A stretch of DNA of 43,809 bases from contig RFGI01000071.1 in the NCBI GenBank assembly GCA_003696725.1, positions 1 through 43,809 of the forward strand, in the 5' to 3' direction. Positions 17,940 to 37,075 of this stretch are shown here, in pieces (positions within the stretch are counted from its first letter, which is position 1; every line of letters starts with the position of its first letter). The notes under the pieces are model-generated. The model had not been told where the DNA came from. It ran no database searches and saw nothing but the letters and a program-made list of their open reading frames with translations. The translations under genes were made by a program, and so were the position numbers. Source of the DNA: Planctomycetota bacterium (GTDB lineage Bacteria; Planctomycetota; Phycisphaerae; Phycisphaerales; UBA1924).

Positions 17940-18630
17940 GCTCGGCGCCTCCCGCGATGATCCGGATGACCGGCTCGATCGCCTGCACAAACTCCGCGGC
18001 GATCTCGCGCCGCTCGGCGGCGTCGAGGTCCCCGCCGCTGACGAGCTGGATCTGCGCCGCCCCGAGCCCGGCGCGATCCCGCCGGCGGCCCGCGGCGGTC
18101 ACCTCGCCGTAGGACGCGACCACGTCGCTCGGCCCGCCTGGTACGACGAAGAACCCGATCACGTTCATGGACTGCTCGAACCCGTCGCTGGTCCGGGTGA
18201 AGCTGTACTCGGTGGCCGGCACGGAACCCGCGCCAAGGGCGATGGACGTGTCCTTGCGGTCGACCTCGACCCAGCCGTGCGCCGGGTAGCACTTGGGCGG
18301 GTAGTGCCCGAGCATGTCGCGGGCGTCGCCGGTGTGGACCAGCAGCAAGGAGAACGCGCGCCCCGTCGCGGGGTCGGTGTACCGCCGCTGGAGCAGGACG
18401 TTCGGCCTGAGGATCTTGACCGCGGCGGGCGGGGCCTCGACGTCCCGCCCCACCCACCGGCCCACCTTGTACGGGATGCTCTCGGCGGCGCGGCGGACGG
18501 CGGCGCGGTACGCCTCGGCCCGGTCGGGGTTGACGGACGAGGCGCCGGCCGCGGCCATCATCGCGACCAGGAGCGCCGCCGACAGCGCCGGCGCCAGCCA
18601 CAGGATCGGACGGTCTTGGCCGGTCGCCAC
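17932..18630 (-). CDS. exosortase-associated EpsI-domain protein
   Basis: N-terminal TM; IPYKVGRWVGRDVE and YPPKCYPAHGWV motifs typical of EpsI domains; immediately downstream of the exosortase; GGAGG RBS 7 nt before GTG. Confidence 0.85.
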   Translation of the reverse strand: MATGQDRPILWLAPALSAALLVAMMAAAGASSVNPDRAEAYRAAVRRAAESIPYKVGRWVGRDVEAPPAAVKILRPNVLLQRRYTDPATGRAFSLLLVHTGDARDMLGHYPPKCYPAHGWVEVDRKDTSIALGAGSVPATEYSFTRTSDGFEQSMNVIGFFVVPGGPSDVVASYGEVTAAGRRRDRAGLGAAQIQLVSGGDLDAAERREIAAEFVQAIEPVIRIIAGGAERG

Positions 18631-18632
18631 GC

Positions 18633-19499
18633 TCAGTCCTCCGCCACCGCGTAGGGGGCGATCGGGACCTCCAGCCAGCGCAGGAGGGCCAGCGTCGCCC
18701 ACAGGATGCCCAGGGCCACGAACAGCATGGCCCAGCCGCTCAGGTCGTGAAACAGCTCCGCCGTGTTGAGGTCGGAGTACCCGTAGAACAGCACCGTCGG
18801 CGCCAGACGCAGCACGTTGCACACGATCGCCACGATCGGGCTCACCGCCAGCAGCACAACCCGCACGCTCTGCCGCATCGGGACCGAGAACACGAAGGCG
18901 TACGTCACGATCGCCAGCGCCGCGACCATGCGCATGCCGTTGCACGCCTCGGCGACGGCGACCTGGTGCTCATTGATGACCAGCACGTTCCCGGTCCGGA
19001 CCACGGGCACGCCGAAGAGCTCCAGCCCGAACGACGTCACCTGGGCCGTCACCTGCTGCAACGGGCCCGCGACGGCCTGCCGGATGAACCCGGGCACGGG
19101 CACCAGGAACGCCAGCGCCGCGAACGCGGGCAGGAACCGGATCACCATCGGGACCCCGATCACCGTCACCACGGCGCCGACCAGCGCCGCGACGGCGCCG
19201 GCGTGCTCCAGCGCCAGGTGGCCCTGCCGGTAGCCGAACTCCGCCAGCGCCCACCCCGCCGCGATCGCCGCGGGCCCGGCGAACGACCACCCTGGCCGCA
19301 CGAACCGGAGCCGCTCGCGCCGCACCCAGAACAGCCACGCCGCCACGATCGGCGCCAGCAGCACGTGCGACTGCTCCTCGTCGCGCAGCGCCACCGTGAA
19401 AATGTCCAGCCACGTCCGCCACGTCGCGGCCACGGCCAGCGCCATCAGCCCCATCATCAGCGCGCCGTCGCTGAAGCGCCACGCCCGGCGGTCGATCAT
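18633..19499 (-). CDS. exosortase (transmembrane cysteine transpeptidase-like)
   Basis: Polytopic; catalytic-type motifs VAEACNGMRM (Cys), NVLRLAPTVLFYGY (Arg), LFHDLSGWAMLF (His). Confidence 0.92.
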   Translation of the reverse strand: MIDRRAWRFSDGALMMGLMALAVAATWRTWLDIFTVALRDEEQSHVLLAPIVAAWLFWVRRERLRFVRPGWSFAGPAAIAAGWALAEFGYRQGHLALEHAGAVAALVGAVVTVIGVPMVIRFLPAFAALAFLVPVPGFIRQAVAGPLQQVTAQVTSFGLELFGVPVVRTGNVLVINEHQVAVAEACNGMRMVAALAIVTYAFVFSVPMRQSVRVVLLAVSPIVAIVCNVLRLAPTVLFYGYSDLNTAELFHDLSGWAMLFVALGILWATLALLRWLEVPIAPYAVAED

Positions 19500-20419
19500 C
19501 GCGCGTCCTCCGCCTCGAGGGGCATCCTAGCCGCCAGGTCCGGGTCCCCGGCCGGCGCGCCGTCGACGCACGCCGCGCCCGCGTCGATCGCCGCCCCGGG
19601 CGCGACCACCGACCGAGCCACCACCGCGCCGGCGCCAACCCTCGCGCCGGGCATCACCACCGACTCGAGGATCACCGCGGACGGGTCCACCTCGGCTCGC
19701 GACGAGACCACGCGCCACGGCTCGCCCGCCGGCGCGTGCGCCCGCGCCACCCAGAGCAGGTCCTCGCGCGTCCGCACCGCGGGCGCCCCGACGCCGGCGA
19801 ACGTATGCACGTAGACGCCCAACCCCGCGTCGATCACCTTTGCGAGCCACTGCTCCTTCAGGTCCATGAATCCCTTCGCCGGAACCAGGCTCAGCGCCTC
19901 GGCGGACGCCAGGTACACACCCGCGGGCGAGCCGTCGGCCTGGCGGGCGACGGTGACGGCGGCGCCGCGCTCGGCGTGCTCGCGGATCAGCGGGATCAGC
20001 GACGCGCCGAGCCAGCGGTTGGTCTCGGCGATCAGCGTGACGCCGGACGTAACGAACGAGTCGGCGACGTCCCGGGCGACGCCCGCCGGCCCGCGGTACT
20101 GCCCGGACTCGCTGACGAACACGACCCGCGCCCGGCCGATGGGTCTGGGCGTCTGAGCGGCGTCGCGCGACCGATCGAACACCACGCGCACCTCCAGGTC
20201 GGCGTCCTCGCCGCAGGCCCGGGCCAGTTCGTTCAAGCGCTCAACCCAACGCGCCAGGAGCGAGGTCGTCCCATCGGGCGCCAGCCACAGGGGGTGCACG
20301 CCGGTCGCCGCCGCCAGGGGCGCGGGCTTGAGCCCGCCGGCGAGCAGGATCACGCCCGGCGCCGGGACGCAACACCTCCCCCCGCACAGCGCCGGGCTGG
20401 CCACGCCCCGCTCATCCAT
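19496..20419 (-). CDS. NDP-sugar nucleotidyltransferase-like protein with C-terminal hexapeptide repeats
   Basis: GVILLAGGLKPAPLAAATGVHPLWLAPDGTTSLLARW start; C-terminal VDPSAVILESVVMPGARVGAGAVVARSVVAPGAAI repeats. Confidence 0.7.
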   Translation of the reverse strand: MDERGVASPALCGGRCCVPAPGVILLAGGLKPAPLAAATGVHPLWLAPDGTTSLLARWVERLNELARACGEDADLEVRVVFDRSRDAAQTPRPIGRARVVFVSESGQYRGPAGVARDVADSFVTSGVTLIAETNRWLGASLIPLIREHAERGAAVTVARQADGSPAGVYLASAEALSLVPAKGFMDLKEQWLAKVIDAGLGVYVHTFAGVGAPAVRTREDLLWVARAHAPAGEPWRVVSSRAEVDPSAVILESVVMPGARVGAGAVVARSVVAPGAAIDAGAACVDGAPAGDPDLAARMPLEAEDAR

Positions 20420-20906
20420 GGCGCACGGCCCAGGGGAACCCGGGGACGCTGTCGTACGGCCGGCGCTGTTCGTCGGGCTCGGCCGGGTTGTAGGCGTGCG
20501 TGACGTAATACAGCAGGCCCGCGGGTTCGCACCCCACGGTGGCGGCGCCGTGCCACAGGCCGGGCGGGATGACCAGGACGCCCGGGGCCTTCTCGCCCAG
20601 GACGGCCAGCCAGGCCCACGGCTCACCGTCGCGCCACACGCCCGCCTTGATGTGCCCCCGCACGCACAGCCAGAAGTCGGTCTGCTTCGCGTGCCGGTGC
20701 CAGGCCTTGACCACGCCCGGGTGCTGGCACGAGAAGTTGATCTGCCCCTCGGGCCCCAGGGCGCCCGTGAGCAGGTTCATGATCGACCAGCCACGGTCGT
20801 CGGCGTAGACCGACGCGGGGCAGAGGACCGGCTCGTTCGTCTCGAGCGCCATGGCGCACGCGGCGGCGGCGCCGTCGGCGCAGACGGTGGGGGTGCGGGT
20901 CTGCAT
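20412..20906 (-). CDS. RmlC-like cupin / dTDP-sugar epimerase-like protein
   Basis: DDRGWSIMNLL, GVVKAWHRHAKQTDFWLCVRG, PGVLVIPPGLWHGAATVG, YYVTHAYNPAEPDEQRRPYD. Confidence 0.75.
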   Translation of the reverse strand: MQTRTPTVCADGAAAACAMALETNEPVLCPASVYADDRGWSIMNLLTGALGPEGQINFSCQHPGVVKAWHRHAKQTDFWLCVRGHIKAGVWRDGEPWAWLAVLGEKAPGVLVIPPGLWHGAATVGCEPAGLLYYVTHAYNPAEPDEQRRPYDSVPGFPWAVRHG

Positions 20907-22132
20907 CAGGTCGGCTCCCGTGACGCCGGGGTGATCCCCAGCGCCGCCAGCCGGGCCAGCACGGCGTCGGCCTTGGCGTCCCAGGTCTGGTCGCGCACGC
21001 GCCGCCGGCGCGCCTCGGCGTCGCCGGGGTCGTCCAGCGCCCCCCGGACCTGGCGCGCGAACGCCTCGGGCGTGTCCGCGACGCGCACCAGCCCCTCGTA
21101 ATGCTTCAATTCATAAAACGGCGTGGTGACGATCGGCCGGCCGACGGCGAGGTACTCCTTGAGCTTCACCGGGTTGCACGCGTCGATCCACTTGCTCCGG
21201 TTCCACGGCATGATCAGCGCGTCGCACGCCGCCATGTACCCGGCCACGTCCCCGTACGGCTTCTGCCCGAGGAGCCGGACGTTGGGCGCGTCGCACCAGC
21301 CCTCGGGCAGGCTGCACGCGCCGACCAGCGCGAACGTGACGTCCGGCAGCGCCCGCGCAACCGACAGGAACAACGCCGGGTCGAAGGTGTGGCTGTCGAT
21401 CCCGCCGACGAAGCCCACGCGCGGGCGGCGCAGGGCGGCGATGTCCTCGGGGTATGCGCGGCTCATCCCGGCGTTGATGAAGCGGTCGGCGTCGACGCCG
21501 TGGTCCGCGTAGAACGCCTCGCGGCAGGCGCGGGACTCGTCCTCGTAGAGGCGCGAGGCGCAGAACACGGTCAGGTCCGCGCGGGCCTTGAGATCGCGGT
21601 CGAAGCCCGCGATGAGGTCGGGATCGACGCCGGCGAACTGCTCGTAGCGGTCGGTCCGCTGGTAGACGACGGCCGCCGGCCCGAGCCGGTCCAGCGCCGT
21701 CACCGCCGGCGGGCACGCGACCCAGACCAGCGGGCGCGTCACGCCCGCGGCCCGCGCCGCCCGGCGAACCTGCCACGGCAGCAGCGCCGCGTTGACCCGC
21801 CGGCCCGGCCGGCCCGGCGCGGCCAGGGGGCTGTAGACCGTGAACCCGGGCTCGACCCGGACGCGCCCGCGGCGGAGGCTCCGGGCCTTGCGCGCCACGC
21901 GCGTCAGGAACATGGCGCCCTCGGCGATCCGCGGCGTGCGCATCCCGATCGAGTTGATGTACAGCACCGGCGCCCGCGGCGCGATCCGGCGCATCATCTG
22001 CATGTCGTAGTGCCCGCGGTTGTGGTACCACCAGTCCTCCCCGCCGAAACAGATCACGCCGTCGAACTGGCGCGTGCGCGCCGGTGAGGCGGCGGGGGTC
22101 GGCGCGGCGGGGGTGGTCATGGTCGTGGTCAT
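20906..22132 (-). CDS. glycosyltransferase (GT-B-like)
   Basis: VGFVGGIDSHTFDPALFLSVARALPDVTFALVGACSLPE...NVRLLGQKPYGDVAGYMAACDALIMPW...NPVKLKEYLAVGRPIVTTPF. Confidence 0.85.
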   Translation of the reverse strand: MTTTMTTPAAPTPAASPARTRQFDGVICFGGEDWWYHNRGHYDMQMMRRIAPRAPVLYINSIGMRTPRIAEGAMFLTRVARKARSLRRGRVRVEPGFTVYSPLAAPGRPGRRVNAALLPWQVRRAARAAGVTRPLVWVACPPAVTALDRLGPAAVVYQRTDRYEQFAGVDPDLIAGFDRDLKARADLTVFCASRLYEDESRACREAFYADHGVDADRFINAGMSRAYPEDIAALRRPRVGFVGGIDSHTFDPALFLSVARALPDVTFALVGACSLPEGWCDAPNVRLLGQKPYGDVAGYMAACDALIMPWNRSKWIDACNPVKLKEYLAVGRPIVTTPFYELKHYEGLVRVADTPEAFARQVRGALDDPGDAEARRRRVRDQTWDAKADAVLARLAALGITPASREPT

Positions 22133-22136
22133 CGCG

Positions 22137-23531
22137 TCAGGCCCGGACCAGCCGATCGCCCAGCGCGTCCGCCCAGGGCCGCATCGCGTCGCGCGTGTCC
22201 ACGACGAGGCGCGCGTGCTCGGCGATCGCCGCGTAGTCGAAGGCCTTGTGCGCCGTGGCGATCAGCACGCAGTCGTAGGACGCCAGCGCCTCGGGCGTCG
22301 GCTCGACGGCCGTCATGCCCAGGTCGTGCTTGCGCACCGGCAGGGCCCGGGGCACGTGCGGGTCGGCGTAGTCCACCTCGGCGCCGAGGTCGCGCAGCCG
22401 CTGGATCAGTTCGAAGGAGGGGCTCTCGCGGGTGTCGTCGATGTCCGGCTTGTAGGCCAGGCCCAGGACCAGGACGCGCGAGCCGCGCACCGCCCGGCCG
22501 CGCTCGTTGAGCGCCAGGGCCGTCTTGTGCACAACGTACTCGGGCATCGCCGTGTTGACCTCGCCGGCCAGTTCGATGAAGCGCGTGGGCCGGCCGACCT
22601 CCTTGGCCTTCCACGTCAGGTAGAAGGGGTCGATGGGGATGCAGTGCCCCCCGAGCCCGGGGCCGGGATAGAACGGCATGAACCCGAAGGGCTTGGTCGA
22701 CGCCGCCCGGATCACCTCCCACACGTCCACGCCCATCTCCGAAAGCACGACCTTCATCTCGTTGACCAGGGCGATGTTGACGGCCCGGAAGATGTTCTCC
22801 AGCAGTTTGGCCGCCTCGGCGACCTCGGCGCTGGCCACCGCGCAGACCGTCTCGACGCCGATCGCGTACAGGCTCGCGGCCAGTTGCGTGCTGGTCTCGT
22901 CGAGCCCGCCGACGACTTTGGGGATGGTGCGTGTGGTGTGGATCGCGTTGCCGGGGTCCTCGCGCTCCGGGGAGAAGGCAAGGAAGAAGTCACGCCCGGG
23001 GGTCAGGTCGTGCGCCCGCTCGCCGGCGCCCTCCAGGATCGCGCCGAGGAACTCGCCGCGCGTCGTGCCGGGATAGGTGGTCGATTCCAGCACCACCAGC
23101 TGCCCCCGGCGCAGCGATCGGCCCACGGCCCGGCCGGCGCCCTCGACGTACGACAGGTCGGGCTCGCGGTGCGGGCCCAGAGGCGTCGGCACGCACACGA
23201 GGATCGCGTCGGCTTCGCCCAGCCGGCCCATGTCGGTCGTCGCGCTGAACCGGTCGCTGCCCGAGAGGTCGTCGACGAGCGACTGGCCCAGGTGCTCGAG
23301 GTATTGCTCGCCGCGGTCCAGGGCCTCGATCTTGGCCGGGTCGATGTCGAAGCCGATGACGCGCAGCCCGCCCCGGTGCAGGGCGTGGGCCGCGGGCAGC
23401 CCGACGTACCCCAGCCCGATCACGCCGACGACGGCGGTCTGGTCCGCCAGGCGCTGCGCCAGCGTCTGGGCCGCGGACCCGGCGCCGGTGTGGTTCATCT
23501 CGGCCACGGCCGATCCTCTCGTCTGGCTCAC
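22137..23531 (-). CDS. wbpA: nucleotide sugar dehydrogenase (WbpA-like UDP-sugar 6-dehydrogenase)
   Basis: VIGLGYVGLPAAHALHRGGLRVIGFDIDPAKI, VLESTTYPGTTRGEF, AEVAEAAKLLENIFRAVNIALVNEM, GLGGHCIPIDPFYLTWKA, VLGLAYKPDIDDTRESPSFELI; GTG start with GTGA overlap. Confidence 0.93.
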   Translation of the reverse strand: MSQTRGSAVAEMNHTGAGSAAQTLAQRLADQTAVVGVIGLGYVGLPAAHALHRGGLRVIGFDIDPAKIEALDRGEQYLEHLGQSLVDDLSGSDRFSATTDMGRLGEADAILVCVPTPLGPHREPDLSYVEGAGRAVGRSLRRGQLVVLESTTYPGTTRGEFLGAILEGAGERAHDLTPGRDFFLAFSPEREDPGNAIHTTRTIPKVVGGLDETSTQLAASLYAIGVETVCAVASAEVAEAAKLLENIFRAVNIALVNEMKVVLSEMGVDVWEVIRAASTKPFGFMPFYPGPGLGGHCIPIDPFYLTWKAKEVGRPTRFIELAGEVNTAMPEYVVHKTALALNERGRAVRGSRVLVLGLAYKPDIDDTRESPSFELIQRLRDLGAEVDYADPHVPRALPVRKHDLGMTAVEPTPEALASYDCVLIATAHKAFDYAAIAEHARLVVDTRDAMRPWADALGDRLVRA

Positions 23532-24013
23532 GGTCCCTCCCCGTGGATGAATCCCCGGATGGCGTCCAATAACTCGTCCGAGGCGCAGCCTCGGATCGAG
23601 CCGGTCCCGGACATCTCATCGATCCGATCAAGCAGGTCCGTCAACTGGTTCTCGTCGTAGGCGGCGCGCACCCGGCCCAGGGCCTCCAGCCGGCGGGCCG
23701 TGGCGACCTGGTGGTCGTTGCGGGTCTCGCGCAGGTCCCCCCGCCGGGGCAGGACCACGATCGGCTTGCCCATCTCCAGCGCCGTCAGGATCGACCCCAT
23801 CCCCGCGTGGGCGACGATCGCCCGGGCGCCGGCGACCCGCTCGCGGAACCGCGGCGGGTCCAGGAACCGCTCGTGCTCGATGTGCGCCGGGCGCCAGTCC
23901 GTCGGCCCGATCTGGGCGAAGACGTCCCGCCGGCCGCGCGCCTGCGCCCAGGCGTCCACCGCCCGCACCAGCCGGTCGAACGGCATCTGCGCTCCCACCG
24001 TCACGAAGATCAC
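23528..24013 (-). CDS. Alg13/PssE-like glycosyltransferase catalytic subunit
   Basis: VIFVTVGAQMPFDRLVRAVDAWA...VAHAGMGSILTALEMGKPIVVLPRRGDLRETRNDHQ; GTGA overlap with the Alg14-like gene. Confidence 0.88.
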   Translation of the reverse strand: MIFVTVGAQMPFDRLVRAVDAWAQARGRRDVFAQIGPTDWRPAHIEHERFLDPPRFRERVAGARAIVAHAGMGSILTALEMGKPIVVLPRRGDLRETRNDHQVATARRLEALGRVRAAYDENQLTDLLDRIDEMSGTGSIRGCASDELLDAIRGFIHGEGP

Positions 24014-24528
24014 AGCACCGCCCCCCGGTAGACCGGCGCCGCGGGCGCGCGACGGCCGGTGGGACGGACGCCCGGCCCGCCGTCGGGGGCGCCGGCCAGG
24101 TGCGGCCACTGCGTCAGCCACAGGTCCGCGTGCGGCCCGACGCGCTCGCCCGAGAGCGACAGCCGCTCGACGTTGGCGATGCTGTCGAGCCAGACCGTCC
24201 GGGCGCCGAGCAGCCGCCCCGCCCGGATCGCGAAGAACCCCGGCGCCGCCCCGGTGGTGATCACCACGTCCGGGCGCACGCGGGCCAGGATCCAGCCGAT
24301 CTTGAGCGCCATCCGGACGAGCCCGATCTTGTTCCACCGCGTCGCGTCGTTGATGACACGGAAGTCGGCGTCGGCCACGTCGGCGCGGTACGCCTCGCTC
24401 ACCGTGACGTACGTCACGTCGCACCCGTCAAACGCCGGGCGCAGGCGCAGCAGCTGCACCCAGTGCCCCCCGCCCGAGGCGATCGCCAGGACCCGCGGCC
24501 GGCGGGCGTGTTCGGCGTCACGCGTCAT
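24010..24528 (-). CDS. Alg14/PssD-like glycosyltransferase membrane-partner subunit
   Basis: VLAIASGGGHWVQLLRLRPAFDGCDVTYVTV...DVVITTGAAPGFFAIRAGRLLGARTVWLDSIANVERLSLSG. Confidence 0.88.
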   Translation of the reverse strand: MTRDAEHARRPRVLAIASGGGHWVQLLRLRPAFDGCDVTYVTVSEAYRADVADADFRVINDATRWNKIGLVRMALKIGWILARVRPDVVITTGAAPGFFAIRAGRLLGARTVWLDSIANVERLSLSGERVGPHADLWLTQWPHLAGAPDGGPGVRPTGRRAPAAPVYRGAVL

Positions 24529-25271
24529 CGCCGGTCCGCCTCCATCTCGTCGAGCAGGGCGCCCATCGGCGCCAGCCGCCAGCCGCGCCGCCGCGCCAGG
24601 TCCAGGATCGCCGCCGTCACCCCGAGCACAAACGCCGCGCGATCCTCGGCGTTCTCTCCCGCCCGGTCGAAGTCGTGCAGCAGGACCACCCCCCCGCCGG
24701 CGCGCTCGACTCGGCCGGCCACCTGCTCCGGCTCGGGCGTCTCGGGCCAGGTGTCGCCCGAGTCGACCGTCCACCAGCCCAGCCGGGCGCCCCGGGCGCG
24801 TACGGCCCGCGCGGTCCACGGCGTGATCTTGCCGTACGGCGGGCGGAAGATCGGCCGCTCGCCCAGCCATCGACCCAGCGCCTCGAATCCCGCGGCGACG
24901 TCCGCGACGGCCCGCGCCGGGGCCGTCTTCCACGCGTTGAGATGCTCGCGCGAGTGGCACCCGATCTCGTGCCCGGCGTCGTGGACGGCGTCGGCCACCG
25001 CCTGGGCCCGCTCGGCGCGCCGCCCGAGAAGGAAGAACGTCGCCCGCGCGTCGGCCTGCGCCAGCCTGTCCAGGAGCCGCGGCGTCAGGTCGGCGCCCGG
25101 CCCGTCGTCGTAGGTGAGCGCGACCGCGCCCGTCGCGGCGCAGTGCGCCGCCAGCCGCCGCACCGCCAGGCGCCTGGCGACGACGGGCGACGCCAGCCAC
25201 GCCCCAGCGCCCGACGCGCACACCACGCCCGCCCCGCCCGCGACCAGCGCCGTGGCGCCCAGATCGGTCAC
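24525..25271 (-). CDS. polysaccharide deacetylase (NodB domain)
   Basis: VALTYDDGPGADLTPRLLDRL, CHSREHLNAW, RPPYGKITPW, WWTVDSGDTWPE, VVLLHD; GTG start in GTGA overlap. Confidence 0.92.
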   Translation of the reverse strand: MTDLGATALVAGGAGVVCASGAGAWLASPVVARRLAVRRLAAHCAATGAVALTYDDGPGADLTPRLLDRLAQADARATFFLLGRRAERAQAVADAVHDAGHEIGCHSREHLNAWKTAPARAVADVAAGFEALGRWLGERPIFRPPYGKITPWTARAVRARGARLGWWTVDSGDTWPETPEPEQVAGRVERAGGGVVLLHDFDRAGENAEDRAAFVLGVTAAILDLARRRGWRLAPMGALLDEMEADRR

Positions 25272-26272
25272 GGCGCGGGCTCCATCACCGGATCGGCGGT
25301 CGGGGTCACCGGCGCTGGGCCGGCCATCGCCGGGTCGCGGTACGCGTCGCGCCACTGGCGCCGGCGGCTGAGGATCTCGCGCCACAGGTCGCGCTGGTCG
25401 CGCGTCCCCCGCCCCAGGCGCGCCCGAAGCGCGGCGCGCCCGGCCTTGCCCAGCGCCCACAGGTCCAGGCCCAGCAGCCCGACCCGGGCGCCCACCGGCG
25501 AGAAGTGCTTGCGCATCAGCCGGGCCCGGGCCACGAACTGCCGCACGACCTGGTCGCTCTTGACGGCCTCGGAGCGCCCGCCCAGGTGGATGATCGTCGC
25601 GTCGGGCGTGAAGCTCGGCCGGGCGCCGACGGCGCGGGCCCGGATGCACAGGTCGACCTCCTCGCCGTACATCGTGAACCGCGGATCGAACCCGCCCAGC
25701 CGGCGCCACAGGTCCGCGCGGATCAGCAGGAAGCAGCCGGTGACCGTCGCCACCTCGCGCACGCTGTCGCGGCGCCACCGCCCCAGCGACTCGGGATCGA
25801 AGAGGCGCGACCCCTTGAACACGGCGGCCAGCCCCAGCCCGCGCGACAGGTTGCTCCACGGGCTCTGCGGGCCCCAGCAGGAGGTCGGGTTCAGCGCGCC
25901 GTCCTCGAACACCGTCCGCCCGCCCCAGATCCCCGCGCCCGGGCTCTGGCGGGCGAACGCGACGAGCCGGTCGATCGCGCCGTCGAGCACCACCGTGTCC
26001 GGGTTCAGGAGCAGGATGAACTCTCCTCTGGCGTCGGCGGCGGCGAGGTTGTTCGCCGGCGCAAAGCCGATGTTCTCGCCAAGCCGATACAGCCGGGCGG
26101 CCGGGAAGCCCTGCGCGATCATCTCCGCCGACCCGTCCGAGGACGCGTTGTCCACCACGAGCAGCTCGTGCGGGACGCGGGTCTGGTCGATCACCGACGC
26201 CAGGCAGGCGCGCGTCAGGTCGCGCGTGTTATAACTCACCACGATCACCGACACGACCGGCGCCGATGTCAT
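25268..26272 (-). CDS. glycosyltransferase family 2
   Basis: VSVIVVSYNTRDLTRACLASVIDQTRVPHELLVVDNASSDGSAEMI...NIGFAPANNLA...FILLLNPDTVV. Confidence 0.93.
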   Translation of the reverse strand: MTSAPVVSVIVVSYNTRDLTRACLASVIDQTRVPHELLVVDNASSDGSAEMIAQGFPAARLYRLGENIGFAPANNLAAADARGEFILLLNPDTVVLDGAIDRLVAFARQSPGAGIWGGRTVFEDGALNPTSCWGPQSPWSNLSRGLGLAAVFKGSRLFDPESLGRWRRDSVREVATVTGCFLLIRADLWRRLGGFDPRFTMYGEEVDLCIRARAVGARPSFTPDATIIHLGGRSEAVKSDQVVRQFVARARLMRKHFSPVGARVGLLGLDLWALGKAGRAALRARLGRGTRDQRDLWREILSRRRQWRDAYRDPAMAGPAPVTPTADPVMEPAP

Positions 26273-27090
26273 CCTTCACCCACCTGATCCTGACCCGCTT
26301 CAACGTCCGTGTCGACGCGGCGTGGTCCCGCGCCGGCCTGGACCCGGCCTGGCTCGAGCACCGCTTCGGCCTCTTCGACCGCTACTGCCTGCCCTCGATC
26401 GAAGCGCAGACCGAGCGCGCGTTCACCTGGCTGATCTTCTTTGACGCCGCGACGCCCGAGCCCTTCCGCGCCCGGGCCGAGGCGCTGGCCGGCCGCGGCT
26501 TCATCCGCCCCGTGTTCCTCGACCGGTTCGACCCGGCGCCGGTCAGCGAGGCGGTGCGCGCGGCCCTGACGCCCGGCGCGGCGCGGCTGGTCACCACCCG
26601 GCTGGACAACGACGACGCCCTGTCGGTCGATCACGTCGCCCGGGTGCGGGATCACGTCGCGGACCAGGCCTTCGCGTTCGTGAACTTCGACCGCGGGTTC
26701 GTGCTGCGCGACGGCCGGCTCTACGAGCACCGGCACCCGTCCAACGCATTTGCGAGCCTGATCGAAGCGCTCGAGCCCGGGTCGGCGCCGAGGACGGTCT
26801 GGAGCGTGCAGCACATGCAGATCGCCGGCGCCGGGCCCGTGATCCACGACCAGGGGCCGCCCGCCTGGCTCCAGATCGTGCACGGGCGGAACGTGTCCAA
26901 CCGCGTGCGCGGGCGCCGCCGGCGTCGCGAGGCGCTGCGCGAGGGGTTCCCGTTCGCGGCCCGAGGCGACGGCGGGCGCGACTCGGCGCTGGGGGTGCTG
27001 GCCGACCGGGCGCTCTTCGAGCCGGCGCGGGCCTCGCGGGACGCGGCGATCGCGCTGGGCCGGCGCCTGCGCCGCGGGCTGTCGCGGTGA
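26266..27090 (+). CDS. putative rhamnosyltransferase-like glycosyltransferase
   Basis: MSSFTHLILTRFNVRVD...HRFGLFDRYCLPSIEAQTERAFTWLIFFD...LVTTRLDNDDALS, resembling the putative rhamnosyl transferase family; only plus-strand gene inside the array. Confidence 0.82.
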   Translation: MSSFTHLILTRFNVRVDAAWSRAGLDPAWLEHRFGLFDRYCLPSIEAQTERAFTWLIFFDAATPEPFRARAEALAGRGFIRPVFLDRFDPAPVSEAVRAALTPGAARLVTTRLDNDDALSVDHVARVRDHVADQAFAFVNFDRGFVLRDGRLYEHRHPSNAFASLIEALEPGSAPRTVWSVQHMQIAGAGPVIHDQGPPAWLQIVHGRNVSNRVRGRRRRREALREGFPFAARGDGGRDSALGVLADRALFEPARASRDAAIALGRRLRRGLSR

Positions 27091-27095
27091 CCCGG

Positions 27096-28445
27096 TCATG
27101 AGGCGGCCGGGACCCTCGGGCGGCCCCGCTCGAGCCCGGCGGGCCTGGACGCGCGAGCCGGCCTCGCCGCCGGGACGGCGCGCCGCGCCGGGGCGATCGC
27201 GCCCACGATCGCCAGCGTCAGCAGCCAGTGCATGATCATCTGCGCGAAGTAGGTCAGGGCGATGAAGTTCATCGCGTGCACGAACAGGGTCACGCCCACG
27301 CACCACCCGAACCATTCGGCCCGGAGGTCGCCCCGTCGAGCGCGGACGAACCGCCCCACGCCGGCGAAGGCGGCCGCGATCAGCCCGACGAACGCCAGCA
27401 GCGTCCAGAGCCCGCCGTTGACCCCCTCGAAGACGTACTGGTTGGTGATGTCGCGGAGCTGGCCCCACGCGTCCCAGTTCTCGGTCGTGAGCGTCCCGAG
27501 CGCCCACCAGTCGTCGAAGTGCTTGATCGCGGCGTCGATGAGGTGGTACCGGTGCCAGCCGGTGGACCCGCTGATCACGTTGACGCGGGCGATCAGGCTC
27601 CAGACCGGGCCCTTCATCACCAGGTGCAGCGCGATCAGCGCCACCACCGAACCCCAGCGGATGGCGCGCATGCGCCGGCGGAAGACAAACATCCCGCAGC
27701 CGAAGATCGTGAACAACACCGACATCACCGGCGTGCTCGAGCTCGTCGTGAACACGATGAACAGCGTCGCCAGGACGCCCGCGACGCCCAGCCACCGCTC
27801 GCGCGGGACCAGCGCCAGCCGGCCCACCATCAGCGGCAGCGTCGTCCCCCAGAACACGCCGGCGAGGATCGCGTGCGCGAACGCGCCCTGGCACCGCAGG
27901 CGCCCGTCGCGCACGTGCGTGATCGGCGACACCCCGCCGAAGACCGAGAACATGTTCCGGTGCGTGACGTACTCGATCAGGAAGAACCCGGCGACCGGGA
28001 TCGACAGGATCACGAACGAGCGGATCACCCGGTCGACGTCCTTCCCGTCGCGCACCAGCACCCGGAACATGAAGTACATCCCGACCGCGTCGAAGGCGTA
28101 GCCCAGGCGGTACACCAGGGCGCTCGTCTCCGTGCGCAGCGCCAGGTAGATCGCCGTCCCGATCCCCACCACGGCGATCTGCCACAGGTCGATCGGCTTG
28201 AAGCGGAAGCCCGCGGCCTCGTTGCGCGACAGGATCCGGACCCACCCGAACACCGTCATGATCCGCAGGAAGTGGAAGTCCGCGCCCGCGATCACCACGC
28301 GCTGCGACACCGGGATGAAGCACACCAGCACGATCGTGGGCAACAGCGCGTACGCCCGCGGCGCCAGCAGCGTCGCCAGCCCGAGGATCCCCAGGATCCC
28401 CGCCCCGACGGGGTGGATCGTGGTGACGCCGGTGAACTCGTTCAT
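27096..28445 (-). CDS. O-antigen ligase/polymerase-like polytopic membrane protein
   Basis: About ten hydrophobic segments from MNEFTGVTTIHPVG; GRLRCQGAFAHAILAGVFWGTTLPL and a large loop before the last TMs, as in Wzy/WaaL-like proteins; ATGA overlap. Confidence 0.78.
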   Translation of the reverse strand: MNEFTGVTTIHPVGAGILGILGLATLLAPRAYALLPTIVLVCFIPVSQRVVIAGADFHFLRIMTVFGWVRILSRNEAAGFRFKPIDLWQIAVVGIGTAIYLALRTETSALVYRLGYAFDAVGMYFMFRVLVRDGKDVDRVIRSFVILSIPVAGFFLIEYVTHRNMFSVFGGVSPITHVRDGRLRCQGAFAHAILAGVFWGTTLPLMVGRLALVPRERWLGVAGVLATLFIVFTTSSSTPVMSVLFTIFGCGMFVFRRRMRAIRWGSVVALIALHLVMKGPVWSLIARVNVISGSTGWHRYHLIDAAIKHFDDWWALGTLTTENWDAWGQLRDITNQYVFEGVNGGLWTLLAFVGLIAAAFAGVGRFVRARRGDLRAEWFGWCVGVTLFVHAMNFIALTYFAQMIMHWLLTLAIVGAIAPARRAVPAARPARASRPAGLERGRPRVPAAS

Positions 28446-29752
28446 GCGGCGTCCTCCACCGCGGCGCCCGTGGGCGCGCCCGCCTCGACGGGCATCGGCA
28501 CGACAGGTCTCGGGCGGCGCAGCCCCCCGGCGGCGATCCGCCGGGCCGTCCCCGCGAGCGACCTGATCTTCTCCATCGTCGACAGACGCGTCAGCCAGAA
28601 GCGGAACATCGCCAGCCCGCGGTGCCGAGGCGCCGGGACCCCGCACAACCGGGACGCCAGCGACCGCCCCCACACCGCGCCCCGCGTCTTGAGGAGGTTC
28701 GGCTGGGACGCGGGCAGCGCGCCGGGCTCGACGGGCGACGCCTCGAGCGCGCCGGACTCGATCGCGCGCTCGATAAAGTCGCGCCCGCGCGGCGTGCGGG
28801 CCAGGATCAGCGACAGCCCGGGGCCGCCCGATTCGACCGGCCGATGCCAGGGGTCCCCCACCGCGACGTCGGCGAACTCGCCCGTGTGATCGGCGCAGAC
28901 CTTGCAGCGCCACTGCTTGTAGTTCGTGAGGATCTCCCCCCAGGACTGCTCGTAGGTCAGCGTGGCCGAGCGCTCGGCGCCGGCGCCGTCGCGCCAGACC
29001 GCCGTCGCCAGCCCGGGCCAGCCGTTCCCGCGGTAGCGCAGGCTGATCAGGCGCCTCGGGTCCTCGACGCCCATCCGCCGGAGCATCTCAAATGTGCCCC
29101 GCGTCGACGGCGTCCCGGCGCAGAAGAACGCGATCGTCAGCCCGAGTTTCGCGTCCAGCGCGGGGCGCATGCGGCGCGCCTTGAGCACGGCGGCGGCGTC
29201 GCAGGGCTTGCCGATGAAGACGCAGGGGCCCGGCGCCTCCTCGATCAGCCCGAGCCCGTCGCACGGGCTCGCCGGGGCGTAGCGCGAGCCGGTGCGGTCC
29301 AGGAGCTCTCGGCGCGTCGTGCTCAGGACGGTTCGGTTCAGGTGCGGCGCGTCCTGTCGGGCGGCGATGTGCAGGACGCCGGCCAGGCCCTCGCGCTCGA
29401 GCCCGTGCAGCGCCAGGGCCGAGGCCGCCCCACCGCTCGAACCGGCGAAGCGGATCTCGGGGTCGGCCGCGTGCCCTTCCCACAGCGCCAGGACCGGGCC
29501 GAAGCCGGGGAACAGCTCGCGGATGACGCCCGGCGCGCGCCGGGCGCCGGGGTCGTGCTCGAGCGCCACGCCCGGGCAGACGCGCAGGGCGTCGGATGTG
29601 TCGGCGTCGCGCCCGCCGGTGACGACCGGGCGCCGACCGTGTTCGAGGTCGTCGACCATCTCGATGCGCGCGTCGACGGCGGCGCAGGCCCCGCACCCGC
29701 AGCACAGCCCGCGCTCCGCGACATCCGTGATGGACAGGACGGGGAGCCTCAC
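28442..29752 (-). CDS. FrhB-like (coenzyme F420 hydrogenase/dehydrogenase beta subunit family) Fe-S oxidoreductase
   Basis: GLCCGCGACAAVD Cys cluster, FAGSSGGAASALALHGLE, CVFIGKPCDAAAVLKAR, CKVCADHTGEFADVAVGDPW; GTGA overlap. Confidence 0.85.
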   Translation of the reverse strand: MRLPVLSITDVAERGLCCGCGACAAVDARIEMVDDLEHGRRPVVTGGRDADTSDALRVCPGVALEHDPGARRAPGVIRELFPGFGPVLALWEGHAADPEIRFAGSSGGAASALALHGLEREGLAGVLHIAARQDAPHLNRTVLSTTRRELLDRTGSRYAPASPCDGLGLIEEAPGPCVFIGKPCDAAAVLKARRMRPALDAKLGLTIAFFCAGTPSTRGTFEMLRRMGVEDPRRLISLRYRGNGWPGLATAVWRDGAGAERSATLTYEQSWGEILTNYKQWRCKVCADHTGEFADVAVGDPWHRPVESGGPGLSLILARTPRGRDFIERAIESGALEASPVEPGALPASQPNLLKTRGAVWGRSLASRLCGVPAPRHRGLAMFRFWLTRLSTMEKIRSLAGTARRIAAGGLRRPRPVVPMPVEAGAPTGAAVEDAA

Positions 29753-31158
29753 GCGGGCGCCGCCTCCAGGTACAGGCCGCTGGCCAGCAGCGGCGCCATC
29801 GCCCCCCCGAGCCGGCGCGACCACGCCCCGGCCCGCTCGCCGTAGGCCCAGCCGCAACGCTGCGCGCGCCAGCCGCTCTGGCGGAGTGTGCGCGTCAGCC
29901 ACGCGCGGGTCGAGGGGTGCACGCCCGATCGCTCGTAGTCGCCGGCGCCGGCCATCCCGTTGCGCGTGATCCAGCGCTGGCGTAGGACCGAGGCGCTGCC
30001 CAGGTTCGGCGCCCGGAGAATCAGACGCCCGCCGTCGGCGGTCAGCCCGCGCAGGTCGCGCAGCCGACGGCTCGGGTCCGGCGCCAGATGCACGACGTCC
30101 GGCGCCAGGATCACGTCGAACGACCGGCCCGCCAGCGCCGCGAGCGCTTCCCCGTGGTCGGCCGGCGTGACCTCGATCCCGCGATCCTCCAGGAGGATGG
30201 AGACGGCCGAATCCAGCGGCGTCGCCGTCACCCTCGCCTCGCGTTCAACGAGCGCGGATTCGAGTTCCCCCCACCCGGCGCCGTAGGACAGCACGGCTTG
30301 CCCCGGCTCGACGGCCTGGACCAGCCGGTCGTCGGCGGGCTCGTAGTAGTGCCGCGACCAGCGCGCCCCGGGCAGCCGCGTCTCCGTCGGGAGCAGCTCC
30401 CGCGCCGGCCGGCGCCCGGCGTGGGTCTGGCGCAGCGCCTCGACCAGCCGGTCCATGCGCGCCGAATCGAGCCCCATCCGGCCGACGTACTTGTTCGTCA
30501 GGTGCGGGAGGGTGAAGTCGCCGAGCCGGTCGATCGGCAGCACCCGGCGCATCCCGCAGCGGGTGTAGGGATCGGTCGCGGCGGACACCAGCATGTCGTA
30601 GCGCCCTTCGTGCGGCTCGACGAGGAACCCGCCGGAGTCGATCGCCCGGGCCAGCTGCTCGCGGGTGAGCATGTACGCGGCGCCGTGGTCGTTGGTGAAC
30701 TCGGCGACCCGCGTCCCGCCGCGGTCTCGGACCGAGCCGGGGCGCCAGTGGAAGAACGAGTGCGCGGTGGAGTAGAACACCCGCCCGTCCGGCGCCGTCT
30801 CGGTGCGCAGGAACCCGGCGATCTCGTCCTCGGGCAGGGCCCGCGTCACGTCGAGGTACGCCCGGATGTTCGACTCGGTGATGAGCGTGTCGTCCTCGGA
30901 ATAGATGAACAGGTCGAAGTCGTCGCGGCGCTGGGCGAAGAGCGGCCGGTGGGCGAACGGCAGCGACCACGGGTTCTGGCTGGGCAGGCCCACGAGCACC
31001 TCGACATCAGGGCCGAAGTCCTTGGGGATGTTGCTCAGAACGACGCGGCGGACCGGGAAGGGCATCACCGCGTAGGCGTCCAGCAGCCGCTGGGCGTGGT
31101 CGCGGTTGCCCGCGCCGTAGTTGGCGATCGCGACGAGCACTCGGGGCGTCGGCGTCAC
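29749..31158 (-). CDS. glycosyltransferase-like domain fused to class I SAM-dependent methyltransferase
   Basis: N-half VLVAIANYGAGNRDHAQRLLDAY...DLFIYSEDDTLIT; C-half AVLSYGAGWGELESALVEREARVTATPLD...FDVILAPDVVHLAPDP...GGRLILRAPN; GTG start in GTGA overlap. Confidence 0.75.
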   Translation of the reverse strand: MTPTPRVLVAIANYGAGNRDHAQRLLDAYAVMPFPVRRVVLSNIPKDFGPDVEVLVGLPSQNPWSLPFAHRPLFAQRRDDFDLFIYSEDDTLITESNIRAYLDVTRALPEDEIAGFLRTETAPDGRVFYSTAHSFFHWRPGSVRDRGGTRVAEFTNDHGAAYMLTREQLARAIDSGGFLVEPHEGRYDMLVSAATDPYTRCGMRRVLPIDRLGDFTLPHLTNKYVGRMGLDSARMDRLVEALRQTHAGRRPARELLPTETRLPGARWSRHYYEPADDRLVQAVEPGQAVLSYGAGWGELESALVEREARVTATPLDSAVSILLEDRGIEVTPADHGEALAALAGRSFDVILAPDVVHLAPDPSRRLRDLRGLTADGGRLILRAPNLGSASVLRQRWITRNGMAGAGDYERSGVHPSTRAWLTRTLRQSGWRAQRCGWAYGERAGAWSRRLGGAMAPLLASGLYLEAAPA

Positions 31159-32135
31159 GGCGTGCGGGCTCCGTTGTGGGCGTGCTTGCGGCGGGTGCGC
31201 CGGGCGAGCAGCCCCGGCGCGGCCAGCGCGGCTAGGGCGATAGCGGCGTCGCGCCCGCGCGGGCGCAGGGCGAGGGTCTCCAGGGCGCGCCGGCGGGCGA
31301 GCCACGCCCGACCGTCCACCGCCGCCAGTTCGGACTGGGCGCGGAGGTAATACGCCAGCAGCCGGGCCAGGGCGGCCTGCACGTCCTTCGGCTCATCGGC
31401 GGCGCGGGTGTAGACCTCGGCAAAGACCTCGGCCATCGCGGCGGCGGCGGCCCGGCGGTGATCGACCTCGTCGGCGCGCGTCAGTTGCACCGCGTCGCGC
31501 TCGTCCGAGAGCACGGTGAGCGGCGCCGTCACCAGGGCGATCTTGCCCTCGAACCCCAGCCGGAAGAGCGCCCGGTTGTCCTCCCCGACGCGCAGCCGCT
31601 CGTCGAACCCGCCGACGGCCAGCAGCGCGTCGCGGCGCACCAGCCACGTCGGCAGCACGATCCGGTGGCCCGAGAACCGCGACAGGTGGCGCAGGGGCGC
31701 CTCGAGCACCACCACCTCCCCCTCGAGGGAAAGGTCCGCGAAGCCCAGCGGCGGCCGGTCCCCGCCCCCGACCCAGTTGGTCGCGGCGAGCACCACGCCC
31801 GGGTCGTCCATGACCGGCCGCTGCCGCTCGAGCTTGTCCGGGCGCCAGGCGTCGTCGCTGTCCAGGAACGCGATGAGATCGTGGCGCGCGGCGCGCACCC
31901 CCGTGTTGCGGGCGGCGCTGGGCCCGGCGTTGGGCCGCTCGATCAGGCGCACCGCGTCGGCGAACTCCCGGCGGATCGCCCCGGCCGTCCCGTCGGTCGA
32001 ACCGTCATCAACAACGATGACCTCCTCGGCGGGCCGGGTCTGTTCCAGGACGCTGCGCACGGCCCGAGCCACGCGCCGGGCGCGGTTGTACGTCGGGATC
32101 ACGACGGACACGCCCGGCGTGGTCCGATCCATCAT
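31155..32135 (-). CDS. glycosyltransferase family 2
   Basis: GVSVVIPTYNRARRVARAVRSVLEQTRPAEEVIVVDDGSTDGT...NAGPSAARNTGVRAARHDLIAFLDSDD; a GTG at 32138 (GTGA overlap) is an alternative start. Confidence 0.93.
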   Translation of the reverse strand: MMDRTTPGVSVVIPTYNRARRVARAVRSVLEQTRPAEEVIVVDDGSTDGTAGAIRREFADAVRLIERPNAGPSAARNTGVRAARHDLIAFLDSDDAWRPDKLERQRPVMDDPGVVLAATNWVGGGDRPPLGFADLSLEGEVVVLEAPLRHLSRFSGHRIVLPTWLVRRDALLAVGGFDERLRVGEDNRALFRLGFEGKIALVTAPLTVLSDERDAVQLTRADEVDHRRAAAAAMAEVFAEVYTRAADEPKDVQAALARLLAYYLRAQSELAAVDGRAWLARRRALETLALRPRGRDAAIALAALAAPGLLARRTRRKHAHNGARTP

Positions 32136-33364
32136 CACGCCGCGGCTCCGGCGGCGCGCTCGGCGACGGCGGCCTGTGCGGCGAGCGCGTCCCGGCGCGC
32201 CGCGCGGGCGATCAGGTCCGCCACCACCGGCGCCGACGCCTCCCATGTGTATTTCGACTCGTAGAGCGCCGCGGCGTGGTCCGCCAGCCGCGCGCCGAGC
32301 CCGGGCTCATCGATCAGCCGCGCGCACGCCCCGGCCAGACCCTCGGGCGTGTCGGCGAGCAGGACGTGCCGGCCGTGCTCGGCGTCGTACCCGAACGCTC
32401 CGATCGGCGTCGCGACGACCGGACAACCGCGGGCGAAGGCCTCGGCGATCTTGACCCGCGTCCCCCCGCCGGCGCGCACCGGCACGACCATCGCCGTCCA
32501 GGTCGCGATCTCCTCGCCCGGGTCGTCGACGTAGCCCAGCCCCTCGACGCCGGGGCCCGCCACCGCGCCCGCGTCCGACCCCGCGCCGACGAGGCGCAGG
32601 GTCGCCGAGGGGTGCGCCGCGCGGACCGTCGGCCAGGCCCGGTCCACGAACCAGCGCACGCCGTCGAGGTTCGGGCCGTACTCGAGCGTCCCGATGAACC
32701 CGAACCTGGGTGGCGACGCGGGCCGGCGCGGGACCGGCGCCGGCCGGTCGAACCCGTTGGGCACGACCCCGATGCGCTCGGCGCCCCCGAGCCGCCGCCG
32801 GTCGGCGTCGCTGCACACGGCCAGGGCGGCGAACCGCGACAGCAGGCGGCGCTCGCGCACGCCCCACATCGCCGCGCGCCAGCGGGCGCGAGCCCGCGCA
32901 GCGCCGGTCAGGCCCGCGGCGCGGGTCGATTCCAGTTGGCTCGGCAGGTCGTCCACGTCGAGCACCGCCCCGGGCCAGCGCCGCAGCCCGGTCGCGTTGG
33001 CCGTGCGGACCGTGTGCACCCAGGCGGCGTCGTGCTCACGGATCAGCCCGACGATGGTCGCGCGGTCGGTCGGCGTGATGGCGAACCCGTGCGTGTTCAG
33101 AAACGCCGGGTCGATCGACCGCCGCAGCCGGGTCGGCCAGGCGTCGGCGTGGCGCATCCGGATGACGCCGGCCAGGTCGAAGTCGGCGCGGGCCTCGTCG
33201 AGCCATTCGTCGGGCCAGTCCCCCGCGGAGACCAGCAGGAGCGTCACGTCGCCCACGCCCCGCAGCAGCCGGCCGACGTGCCGCACGCGCAGGCGGGCGC
33301 CGAAGTCCGGCCCGGCTGGGCAGTGGCTGGCGATGTACAAGATGCGCGGGCGGGCGCCGGTCAC
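32135..33364 (-). CDS. glycosyltransferase family 4 (GT-B)
   Basis: RILYIASHCPAGPDFGARLRVRHVGRLL...IGVVPNGFD...FGFIGTLEYGPNLDGVRWFVDRAWP...GGGTRVKIAEAFARGCPVVATPIGAFG. Confidence 0.92.
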   Translation of the reverse strand: MTGARPRILYIASHCPAGPDFGARLRVRHVGRLLRGVGDVTLLLVSAGDWPDEWLDEARADFDLAGVIRMRHADAWPTRLRRSIDPAFLNTHGFAITPTDRATIVGLIREHDAAWVHTVRTANATGLRRWPGAVLDVDDLPSQLESTRAAGLTGAARARARWRAAMWGVRERRLLSRFAALAVCSDADRRRLGGAERIGVVPNGFDRPAPVPRRPASPPRFGFIGTLEYGPNLDGVRWFVDRAWPTVRAAHPSATLRLVGAGSDAGAVAGPGVEGLGYVDDPGEEIATWTAMVVPVRAGGGTRVKIAEAFARGCPVVATPIGAFGYDAEHGRHVLLADTPEGLAGACARLIDEPGLGARLADHAAALYESKYTWEASAPVVADLIARAARRDALAAQAAVAERAAGAAA

Positions 33365-34179
33365 GCGGGGGCCTCGGGCTTGCGGGCCACGAACGCTTGG
33401 GCCAAGGCCGGGTACCCGCCGATCATGTAGTCCTCGAGCCGGCTCAGGATGCGCCGCGGGTCGAACTCCGGGTAGCCGTACAGTTCGGCGCGGTCGCCCG
33501 TCACCAGCTCGAGCCCGCCCCACTGCACGAGGTCGCGCACCGGGACGTTGACGCCGTACTCATTGGAGGCGCGGTCGGTGAACGGTTCGAGATTGAGAAA
33601 GAGATCGACGGTCGCGACGAACAGCCCGCCGGGCCGCAGCAGCCGGCCGACGTGGGCCATGAGCCCGGGCAGCTCGTCCATCGGGATGTGCTCGATGGTG
33701 GAGATGGACAGCACCCGATCGAACGAGTCGTCCTCGAGCCCGGCGTCCTGGAGGAACGTCCGGCGCAGCTCGACGCTCGTGCCGAAGGCGCGGTTGAGGC
33801 GGGCGATCGAGCGCTCGTCGACGGGCCAGCCCCGGCCGTGGGCCTCGTCGCCGGGATCGACGTTGACCACCGACGCGCCCGCCCGAGCCAGCACGAACTG
33901 CATCCCGGCGAGCCCGCCCCCGATGTCCAGCACGCGCAGTCCTGGCTCGGGCGCGATCGCCTCGTACGCCCACGGGTACTCGAACACCCGGATCGTGTTG
34001 TTCGGCTGGATCGCGAACGGCCCGCGCACGGACGGCGCCCAGCGGAACAGGGTGCGCTCGACGAGCCCCCGGCCGCGCGGCAGGGATCGCGCCAGCCGCT
34101 CGAGCCTCGAGCCGAACGGCGCGCCCATCCGGCGGTTCCAGTCCTTGTACGCCGGCGGCAGTCTCGACGGGGCGATCAT
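33361..34179 (-). CDS. class I SAM-dependent methyltransferase
   Basis: LRVLDIGGGLAGMQFVLARAGASVVNVDPGDEA...DRVLSISTIEHIPMDELPGLMAHVGRLLRPGGLFVATVDLFL; ATGA overlap. Confidence 0.88.
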   Translation of the reverse strand: MIAPSRLPPAYKDWNRRMGAPFGSRLERLARSLPRGRGLVERTLFRWAPSVRGPFAIQPNNTIRVFEYPWAYEAIAPEPGLRVLDIGGGLAGMQFVLARAGASVVNVDPGDEAHGRGWPVDERSIARLNRAFGTSVELRRTFLQDAGLEDDSFDRVLSISTIEHIPMDELPGLMAHVGRLLRPGGLFVATVDLFLNLEPFTDRASNEYGVNVPVRDLVQWGGLELVTGDRAELYGYPEFDPRRILSRLEDYMIGGYPALAQAFVARKPEAPA

Positions 34180-35705
34180 GAGGCGGCGGCCATCTCCGGG
34201 GTGACGGGTGACGGGTCCGTGGCCGGAGAGTGGTCCGGCGCGCTCGGGGTGTCGTCTCCTCGGGCGCCGGCGATCCGGCGCGCGACCGCCACTGCGTCGC
34301 GGGCCGCGTCCCGGCACAGCCACCACGACCCCGCGGCGAACACGCCCACGCCCAGCACGACCGACGCGGCGACCACAACGATCGGCGGCGTGGCGCCCGG
34401 CAGCGCCCGCCGCATCGCGAGGACCGCGCCGGCCATCACGACGGACGCCACGGCCGGGCCGAAGACCGACGACGCCTGCGTCCGGATCGACACGCCCGCC
34501 AGCGCCCGCAGGGCGACGGCGTTGACCGCCAGCGCGATCGCCGAGGACGCGACCATCGCCCACGCCACCCCGACGGCGCCGAACCGGTAGCCGGCGACGA
34601 TCGCCGCCGTGGTCCACGCGGTGTGGGCGACCATGATGCTCAAGAAAACACCCGGCCGGCCCGCCGCCATCATCACCGGGTGAACAAACGTCTGCGCCCC
34701 GCGCAGGGCCGCGGCGATCGCCAGGACCGCCAGCACGGGCCCGGCGTCGGCCCACACAGCGCCGAACACCATCGGGGTCACCTCGCGGGCCACCGTCGCC
34801 AGCCCGAAGAACACCGGGAACATGACCAGCCCCGCCAGGCGAAGGGCCCGGCTGTACGCCGCCCCCAGCGCCGCGCGGTCGGCTTGCTTGCGCGACATCC
34901 AGGGCAGCGCGACGGCTTGCAGCGGCGCGGTTAAGAGGTCCAAGACCAGCGTCATCAGCCGCTGCGCCAGGAAGTACACGCCCAGCGCCACGGGCCCGAG
35001 CCCGACGCCGATGACGGCCTTGTCCAGCTGCTGCGAGAAGAACCACAGGACGTTTGTCGCCAGGACGTTGGCGCTGAAGCCGAAGAGTTCGCCGAACGCC
35101 CGGCGCTCGGCCCGCAGCCCGGGACGCCACCGGCTCGCCGACCACAGCGCCGCGACCCCGACGACCGCGGCTGTGAGCTGCTGCCCCACCAGGCTCCACA
35201 CGCCGAACCCCGCCAGGGCCATCCCCACGCCGGCGGCGCCGCCCGCCAGGACGCCCAGCGTCGAGCGCACCGCCAATGGGCGGAACCGCATCTGCCGGGT
35301 CAGCGACGCGGCCGGCACCGACGCCAGGGAGTTGATCGGAACCACCGCCGCCAGCCAGCGCAGCACCGGCGCCAGCCCGGGCTCGCCGGCGACCGCCGCG
35401 ATCGGGCCCGCGGCCAACACCATCACGACGAACAGGCCCGTGCTCAGCGCGAGCGAGATCCAGAACGCCGTGTCCAGGTGAGCGTCGCGGAGGTCCTCGC
35501 GCTGGATGATCGCCGTGCCGAACCCCTGCGAAACGAAGAGCTGGCAGAAGGACGTCACCACCGCGGCCAACGCCACCAGCCCGAAGGCTTCCGGCGCCAG
35601 CAGCCGCGCCAGCGCGACATACACCACGAACGACAGGACGTGCCGGCCCCAGCGCTCGGCCGTCGCCCACACCAGCCCGGCGGCGATGTCCCGGCGGACG
35701 GTCAT
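34176..35705 (-). CDS. polysaccharide flippase (Wzx / MATE-like lipopolysaccharide biosynthesis protein)
   Basis: Polytopic; VYVALARLLAPEAFGLVALAAVVTSFCQLFVSQGFGTAIIQREDL; LDKAVIGVGLGPVALGVYFLAQRL. Confidence 0.92.
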   Translation of the reverse strand: MTVRRDIAAGLVWATAERWGRHVLSFVVYVALARLLAPEAFGLVALAAVVTSFCQLFVSQGFGTAIIQREDLRDAHLDTAFWISLALSTGLFVVMVLAAGPIAAVAGEPGLAPVLRWLAAVVPINSLASVPAASLTRQMRFRPLAVRSTLGVLAGGAAGVGMALAGFGVWSLVGQQLTAAVVGVAALWSASRWRPGLRAERRAFGELFGFSANVLATNVLWFFSQQLDKAVIGVGLGPVALGVYFLAQRLMTLVLDLLTAPLQAVALPWMSRKQADRAALGAAYSRALRLAGLVMFPVFFGLATVAREVTPMVFGAVWADAGPVLAVLAIAAALRGAQTFVHPVMMAAGRPGVFLSIMVAHTAWTTAAIVAGYRFGAVGVAWAMVASSAIALAVNAVALRALAGVSIRTQASSVFGPAVASVVMAGAVLAMRRALPGATPPIVVVAASVVLGVGVFAAGSWWLCRDAARDAVAVARRIAGARGDDTPSAPDHSPATDPSPVTPEMAAAS

Positions 35706-37033: not shown

Positions 37034-37075
37034 GGACGCCGGATCTTCAGCGGGCATCGGCCGGTCGGCCGGGGG

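Follow-up and report, generated by a model that had tools for sequence, protein, structure and literature searches.

The window, which is the whole stretch of DNA analysed here, is 43,809 nucleotides long and comes from a Planctomycetota bacterium. Within it a run of minus strand genes extends from position 40423 down to 10077 with gaps of -8 to +58 nt. Using a codon-usage caller, the sole plus strand gene in this run was a glycosyltransferase gene of the PF11316 family. A sequence-only reading had seen in it an antisense glycosyltransferase lying within an EPS array, and the gene calls bear this out. The PF11316 gene occupies a position, here termed the slot, between a GT2-family glycosyltransferase gene (GT2) and a Wzy-like gene. 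The features are as follows.

10077..25271, minus strand: downstream run encoding a deacetylase, PssD/PssE-like proteins, UDP-sugar dehydrogenase, glycosyltransferase, exosortase, EpsI-like protein (DUF3485), Wzc-like protein, sugar transferase and TPR protein (gene calls, Pfam/NCBIfam)
25268..26272, minus strand: GT2-family glycosyltransferase, the anchor gene, 334 aa (PF00535, orthologues in relatives)
26227..26235, plus strand: candidate extended -10-like motif TGT-TATAAC for the PF11316 gene, weak, with no final T (hexamer scan)
26266..26272, both strands: divergent start overlap ATGTCAT, 7 nt (sequence)
26266..27090, plus strand: PF11316 ('putative rhamnosyl transferase') family glycosyltransferase, the embedded antisense gene, 274 aa (Pfam, motifs, GC3)
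27091..27095, between genes: CCCGG gap between opposing stops, 5 nt (sequence)
27096..28445, minus strand: Wzy-like (O-antigen polymerase-like) gene upstream of the slot (codon-based call; orthologues beside GT2 in many relatives)
28442..40423, minus strand: upstream run encoding an FrhB-like protein, methyltransferases, glycosyltransferases, flippase, pyruvyl transferase and a 1115-aa protein (gene calls, Pfam)

The geometry given by the sequence-only reading, a divergent start overlap at one end and 5 nt between opposing stops at the other, is exact. The plus strand ATG of the PF11316 gene and the minus strand ATG of GT2 overlap head to head in the 7-nt sequence ATGTCAT (26266-26272), while the stops of the PF11316 gene and the Wzy-like gene (27096) are separated by CCCGG (27091-27095). 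An ORF check returned 26266-27090 on the plus strand (274 aa) and 25268-26272 on the minus strand (334 aa).

The exosortase, encoded at 18633-19499, was identified with PF09721 (E 1.8e-53) and scored above the cut-off of TIGR02602. Exosortase and EPS genes lie together in one cluster, as in exosortase/EPS loci. The product of 27096-28445 had no Pfam or NCBIfam match, and the gene is called Wzy-like by its position and appearance only. Two other members of the run stood out. The gene at 37076-40423 (minus strand), at the head of the EPS run, encodes the 1115-aa protein, which has no Pfam match; partial relatives of it occur in further EPS loci of the family. The gene at 28442-29752 (minus strand) encodes an FrhB/FdhB-like protein (PF04432, PF04422) within a polysaccharide cluster and is 60% identical to its counterpart in L036, a locus of a related genome.

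Both overlapping genes and their start codons

The plus strand protein matched PF11316 with an E value of 9.3e-38 and 130.4 bits against a cut-off of 23 bits, covering profile positions 27-234 of 235. Alignment with PF11316 homologues showed that it carries the conserved TTRLDNDD motif and the N-terminal sequence LILTRFN. Rhamnosyl transfer by this product is putative, as in the family name. The minus strand protein matched PF00535 (E 6.2e-22). The GC3 values of the two genes, 0.960 for the PF11316 gene and 0.961 for GT2, resemble those of their neighbors.

The start codons were examined using homologues. Most PF11316 homologues start a few residues ahead of an H-x-[LI]-[LI]-T-R-[FY]-N motif; the exceptions are two divergent copies with ITCLNV, one with ITQFN and one with a longer N-terminus. 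Between the ATG of the PF11316 gene and the N-terminal motif there is no further ATG, GTG or TTG. GT2 relatives mostly start a few residues ahead of a VSYN motif. Alternative GT2 starts at GTG codons 7 and 9 (codons 11 and 12 lie inside the motif) would leave fewer residues before VSYN than most relatives have. Because homologue starts mostly agree for both proteins, both ATGs are likely to be the starts and the overlap is real, which argues against an intergenic gap. The sequence-only reading had named an untranslated ORF, or a real intergenic gap, as grounds for discarding it; both genes are real and homologues back both starts.

A misjoined plus strand gene, or one that is no longer expressed, was also considered, since the assembly consists of 215 contigs. 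We regard such a chimera or relic as highly improbable. The minus strand genes on both sides follow the order found in a relative (L036), and the PF11316 gene is intact, with conserved motifs and a codon usage (GC3 0.960) like that of its neighbors.

Frequency of the layout

Base rates were obtained from the window together with 100 stretches of its genome, comprising ∼822 kb of readable bases (about one third of the genome) and 740 called genes. Genes were called with a simple codon-usage caller; of seven genes spot-checked from comparable pairs, five matched Pfam families. In this sampled genome 3/110 divergent pairs overlapped, including the ATGTCAT pair. Five single opposite-strand genes were less than 60 nt from the neighbor on either side. 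The PF11316 gene is the tightest of these five, with gaps of -7 and +5, and it was the only one in the sampled genome embedded in a co-directional run with all six surrounding gaps ≤5 nt. In a published survey 457 of the well-characterised prokaryotic overlaps, about 1%, were divergent (PMC2478687), and the under-representation of such overlaps has been discussed (PMC2174442). The layout is unusual and not unique. The finding is a real and well-explained case of modest interest, neat yet for the most part ordinary.

The corresponding EPS cluster of one relative (L034, G013) contains a UDP-GlcNAc 2-epimerase gene (PF02350) on the opposite strand (3612-4748, plus). Reverse-strand genes in such clusters are therefore not unique to the window.

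The slot in related genomes

Forty related genomes were searched for the PF11316 protein. No relative was found at E 0.001 in either orientation, leaving its own genome as the only carrier (1/41). In a sample of 397 genomes of the class, a family search reported a match in 15, with 11 of them over the family cut-off. The nearest homologue found (L003, 43% identity) is co-directional between two GT2 genes.

GT2, with clear orthologues (48–57% identity in the closest relatives), served as an anchor for comparing the slot in 26 GT2-carrying relatives, 25 from the same family and one from the same order. In 15/26 relatives GT2 and the Wzy-like gene immediately upstream of it share a strand and are separated by a small gap or overlap slightly. 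The slot holds another gene in 10/26 relatives, always on the strand of GT2. In four of these 10 a single same-strand gene separates GT2 from the Wzy-like gene upstream; in the other six a same-strand gene is upstream and the Wzy-like gene was not found within the 1.5-kb flank. One of the 26 was uninformative due to a contig end at the slot. Loci with different genes upstream of GT2 are L019, L020, L021, L139, L141, L143, L144, L145, L147 and L158. Those slot genes checked by family search encode a NodZ-like fucosyltransferase, a GNAT-type acetyltransferase, a methyltransferase and an acyltransferase.

The best whole-locus comparison is L036 (G022). Its gene order matches that of the window for the FrhB-like, Wzy-like, GT2, deacetylase, PssD/PssE-like, dehydrogenase, exosortase, EpsI-like and Wzc-like genes. 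It is without the PF11316 gene, and the Wzy-like gene is followed directly by GT2 after a 16-nt gap.

These comparisons bear on how the PF11316 gene came to be reversed. The arrangement looks derived, as the sequence-only reading had supposed. That reading also offered a recent inversion of one cassette, which the comparisons do not support. The region 26100-27300 was examined for an invertible cassette. Among the 25 longest of 80 inverted repeat pairs, no long, near-perfect repeat brackets the PF11316 gene. The pair with the longest arms (30 nt, 77%) does not flank it, and the only pair among these 25 with arms beyond both ends of the gene (17 nt, 76%) does not stand out from the others. Such imperfect pairs are of the kind expected in GC-rich sequence. 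The gene may have been gained on the minus strand and flipped later, and the fact that all 10 other slot genes are on the strand of GT2 suggests that the ordinary state of the slot is co-directional. However, the gene was not found on the minus strand, or in any other orientation, in the 40 relatives searched, the neighbors abut in many relatives, and the ends of the gene fit its neighbors within 7 nt. We consider gain followed by inversion quite improbable. A reverse-oriented gain at a variable slot is the simplest history and most likely, and it appears to fit better than inversion because the PF11316 gene was not found in the 40 relatives searched, its neighbors abut on the same strand in many relatives and no long, near-perfect bracketing inverted repeat was found.

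Promoters and terminators

If a plus strand promoter lies near the start of the PF11316 gene, it is necessarily within GT2, as the sequence-only reading had pointed out. A consensus sigma-70 scan of 24500-29000 found no promoter. Over the 366 bases upstream (25900-26265), the plus strand has a single TAnnnT or TATA-type hexamer, TATAAC at 26230; TGT precedes it, and the consensus scan found no -35 partner. This motif was found after the fact, once a promoter location was wanted.

TGT-TATAAC arises from the GT2 codons AGT TAT AAC. TGNTATAAY occurs once on either strand of the sampled genome, at this very site (26227-26235). TAT accounts for 9.3% of Tyr codons in the sampled genome, and AGT-TAT for 1/170 Ser-Tyr pairs, window included. 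None of the 26 relatives has TAT at the corresponding GT2 codon; TAC is found in most and a Phe codon in some, and one relative combines AGT with TAC. TAnnnT is enriched upstream of first genes in the sampled genome, with 5.78 per kb versus 1.17 within operons. TAnnnC is hardly enriched (3.83 versus 3.31 per kb). Since the final T typical of promoters in this genome is missing, TGT-TATAAC is only suggestive. Perhaps it is the promoter of the PF11316 gene, and we treat it as a lead.

TAnnnT hexamers in the sampled genome peak 12–17 nt upstream of predicted starts, both for first genes and for some operon genes. Such a peak is as expected for leaderless mRNAs, and published accounts describe leaderless expression with such -10 motifs in other bacterial groups. 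A leaderless TAnnnT promoter 12–17 nt upstream was sought for the PF11316 gene and for GT2 and is absent at both.

The sequence-only reading stated that read-through of the minus strand genes would yield RNA antisense to the plus strand gene. No intrinsic terminator that would stop such read-through was detected near 27096 or beside the slot; the single weak site, inside the Wzy-like gene, compares with 0.8 expected. An Rfam scan of 24500-29800 gave no match.

The minus strand genes could instead form two transcription units. In that case the operon would end near the Wzy-like gene, and GT2 and the genes downstream of it would start from a promoter inside the PF11316 gene. The PF11316 gene does split the run, and promoters within coding regions are possible. 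However, neither a TAnnnT nor a TATA-type hexamer occurs on the minus strand of 26273-27095, the scan gave no intrinsic terminator near 27096, and the flanking genes are often adjacent in relatives, separated by a few nt or overlapping. Two units are in our estimation unlikely. The missing TAnnnT is consistent with read-through but is weak evidence for it, because the first gene of the minus strand cluster also has none within 400 nt upstream.

Proposed explanation

We propose that the minus strand genes form a single long cluster for an exosortase-associated exopolysaccharide. GT2 and the Wzy-like gene flank a variable slot, where relatives keep different genes, several of them of polysaccharide-decorating families, or nothing. 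The PF11316 gene was probably gained in this slot in reverse in this lineage, and its ends now meet its neighbors. Transcription of the minus strand would read through the PF11316 gene, supplying GT2 and everything downstream, and the PF11316 gene would be covered by antisense RNA in the style of a noncontiguous operon. Less surely, the PF11316 gene may be transcribed from a separate promoter that lies within the 5' end of GT2 and could be TGT-TATAAC. Taken as a whole, reverse gain at the slot with minus strand read-through and a separate promoter is somewhat favored. The arrangement was seen in one genome only, a 215-contig assembly.

A more specific version holds that after the gain, synonymous changes from AGC TAC to AGT TAT in the conserved motif of GT2 created the extended -10, and that the resulting noncontiguous operon couples how the polysaccharide is decorated to the level of its own biosynthetic operon. 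This version is speculative and a long shot.

The sequence-only reading had suggested mutually exclusive, excludon-like expression. A regulatory switch was therefore also weighed, in which the PF11316 gene and the EPS operon would repress each other through transcriptional interference and RNase III cleavage, as in an excludon or noncontiguous operon, and two forms of the polysaccharide alternate. Minus strand read-through would give complete antisense coverage, and the layout matches menE-menC-MW1733-ytkD-MW1731 of Staphylococcus aureus (PMC7154746). Against this, the layout was unseen in the 26 GT2-carrying relatives, no Rfam element is present at the junction, and occurrence in a single genome gives no sign of selection on the layout. 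Since the layout is kept in none of the relatives seen, the excludon reading lacks independent support, and we found no comparative evidence for a conserved excludon among the relatives. A switch of this kind seems improbable.

Should minus strand read-through, as in the proposed reverse gain, prove true, relatives would display the before-state of a noncontiguous operon, and the origin of such operons could be studied here. That origin would be gene gain at a variable slot rather than selection for a switch, and the locus would offer a natural test of whether synonymous codons allow a promoter to be fitted into a neighbor's coding sequence. Otherwise it is a neat case of genes turning over within a polysaccharide locus.

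Comparison with known systems

Exosortase-associated EPS loci have been described for the PEP-CTERM/EpsH system (PMC1569441). Like the loci described there, the cluster brings together an exosortase, an EpsI-like protein, a Wzc-like chain-length kinase and numerous glycosyltransferases. It differs in that its PF11316 gene lies on the reverse strand, in a slot which in relatives is empty or occupied by a gene on the operon strand.

The head-to-head overlap of a few bases at the starts is like that of short divergent prokaryotic overlaps (PMC2174442, PMC2478687). Here, in contrast, the pair lies inside a one-directional cluster and the other end of the gene nearly abuts the next gene.

The excludon is a concept of Sesto et al. 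2013, as described in PMC7154746. The likeness lies in the potential of a coding mRNA to act antisense to a neighbor. An excludon is defined by an observed overlapping transcript that represses its neighbor, whereas the genes here are read from sequence.

The noncontiguous operon menE-menC-MW1733-ytkD-MW1731 of S. aureus was reported by Saenz-Lahoya et al. 2019, as reviewed in PMC7154746, with co-transcription, RNase III processing and reciprocal regulation. In the window the opposite gene occurs in one genome only, its start overlaps that of its neighbor, and the arrangement is known from its DNA alone. As in S. aureus, an opposite-strand gene lies within an operon gene run, and the operon mRNA would cover it wholly in antisense. 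By layout, the PF11316 arrangement resembles a noncontiguous operon and is a candidate for one.
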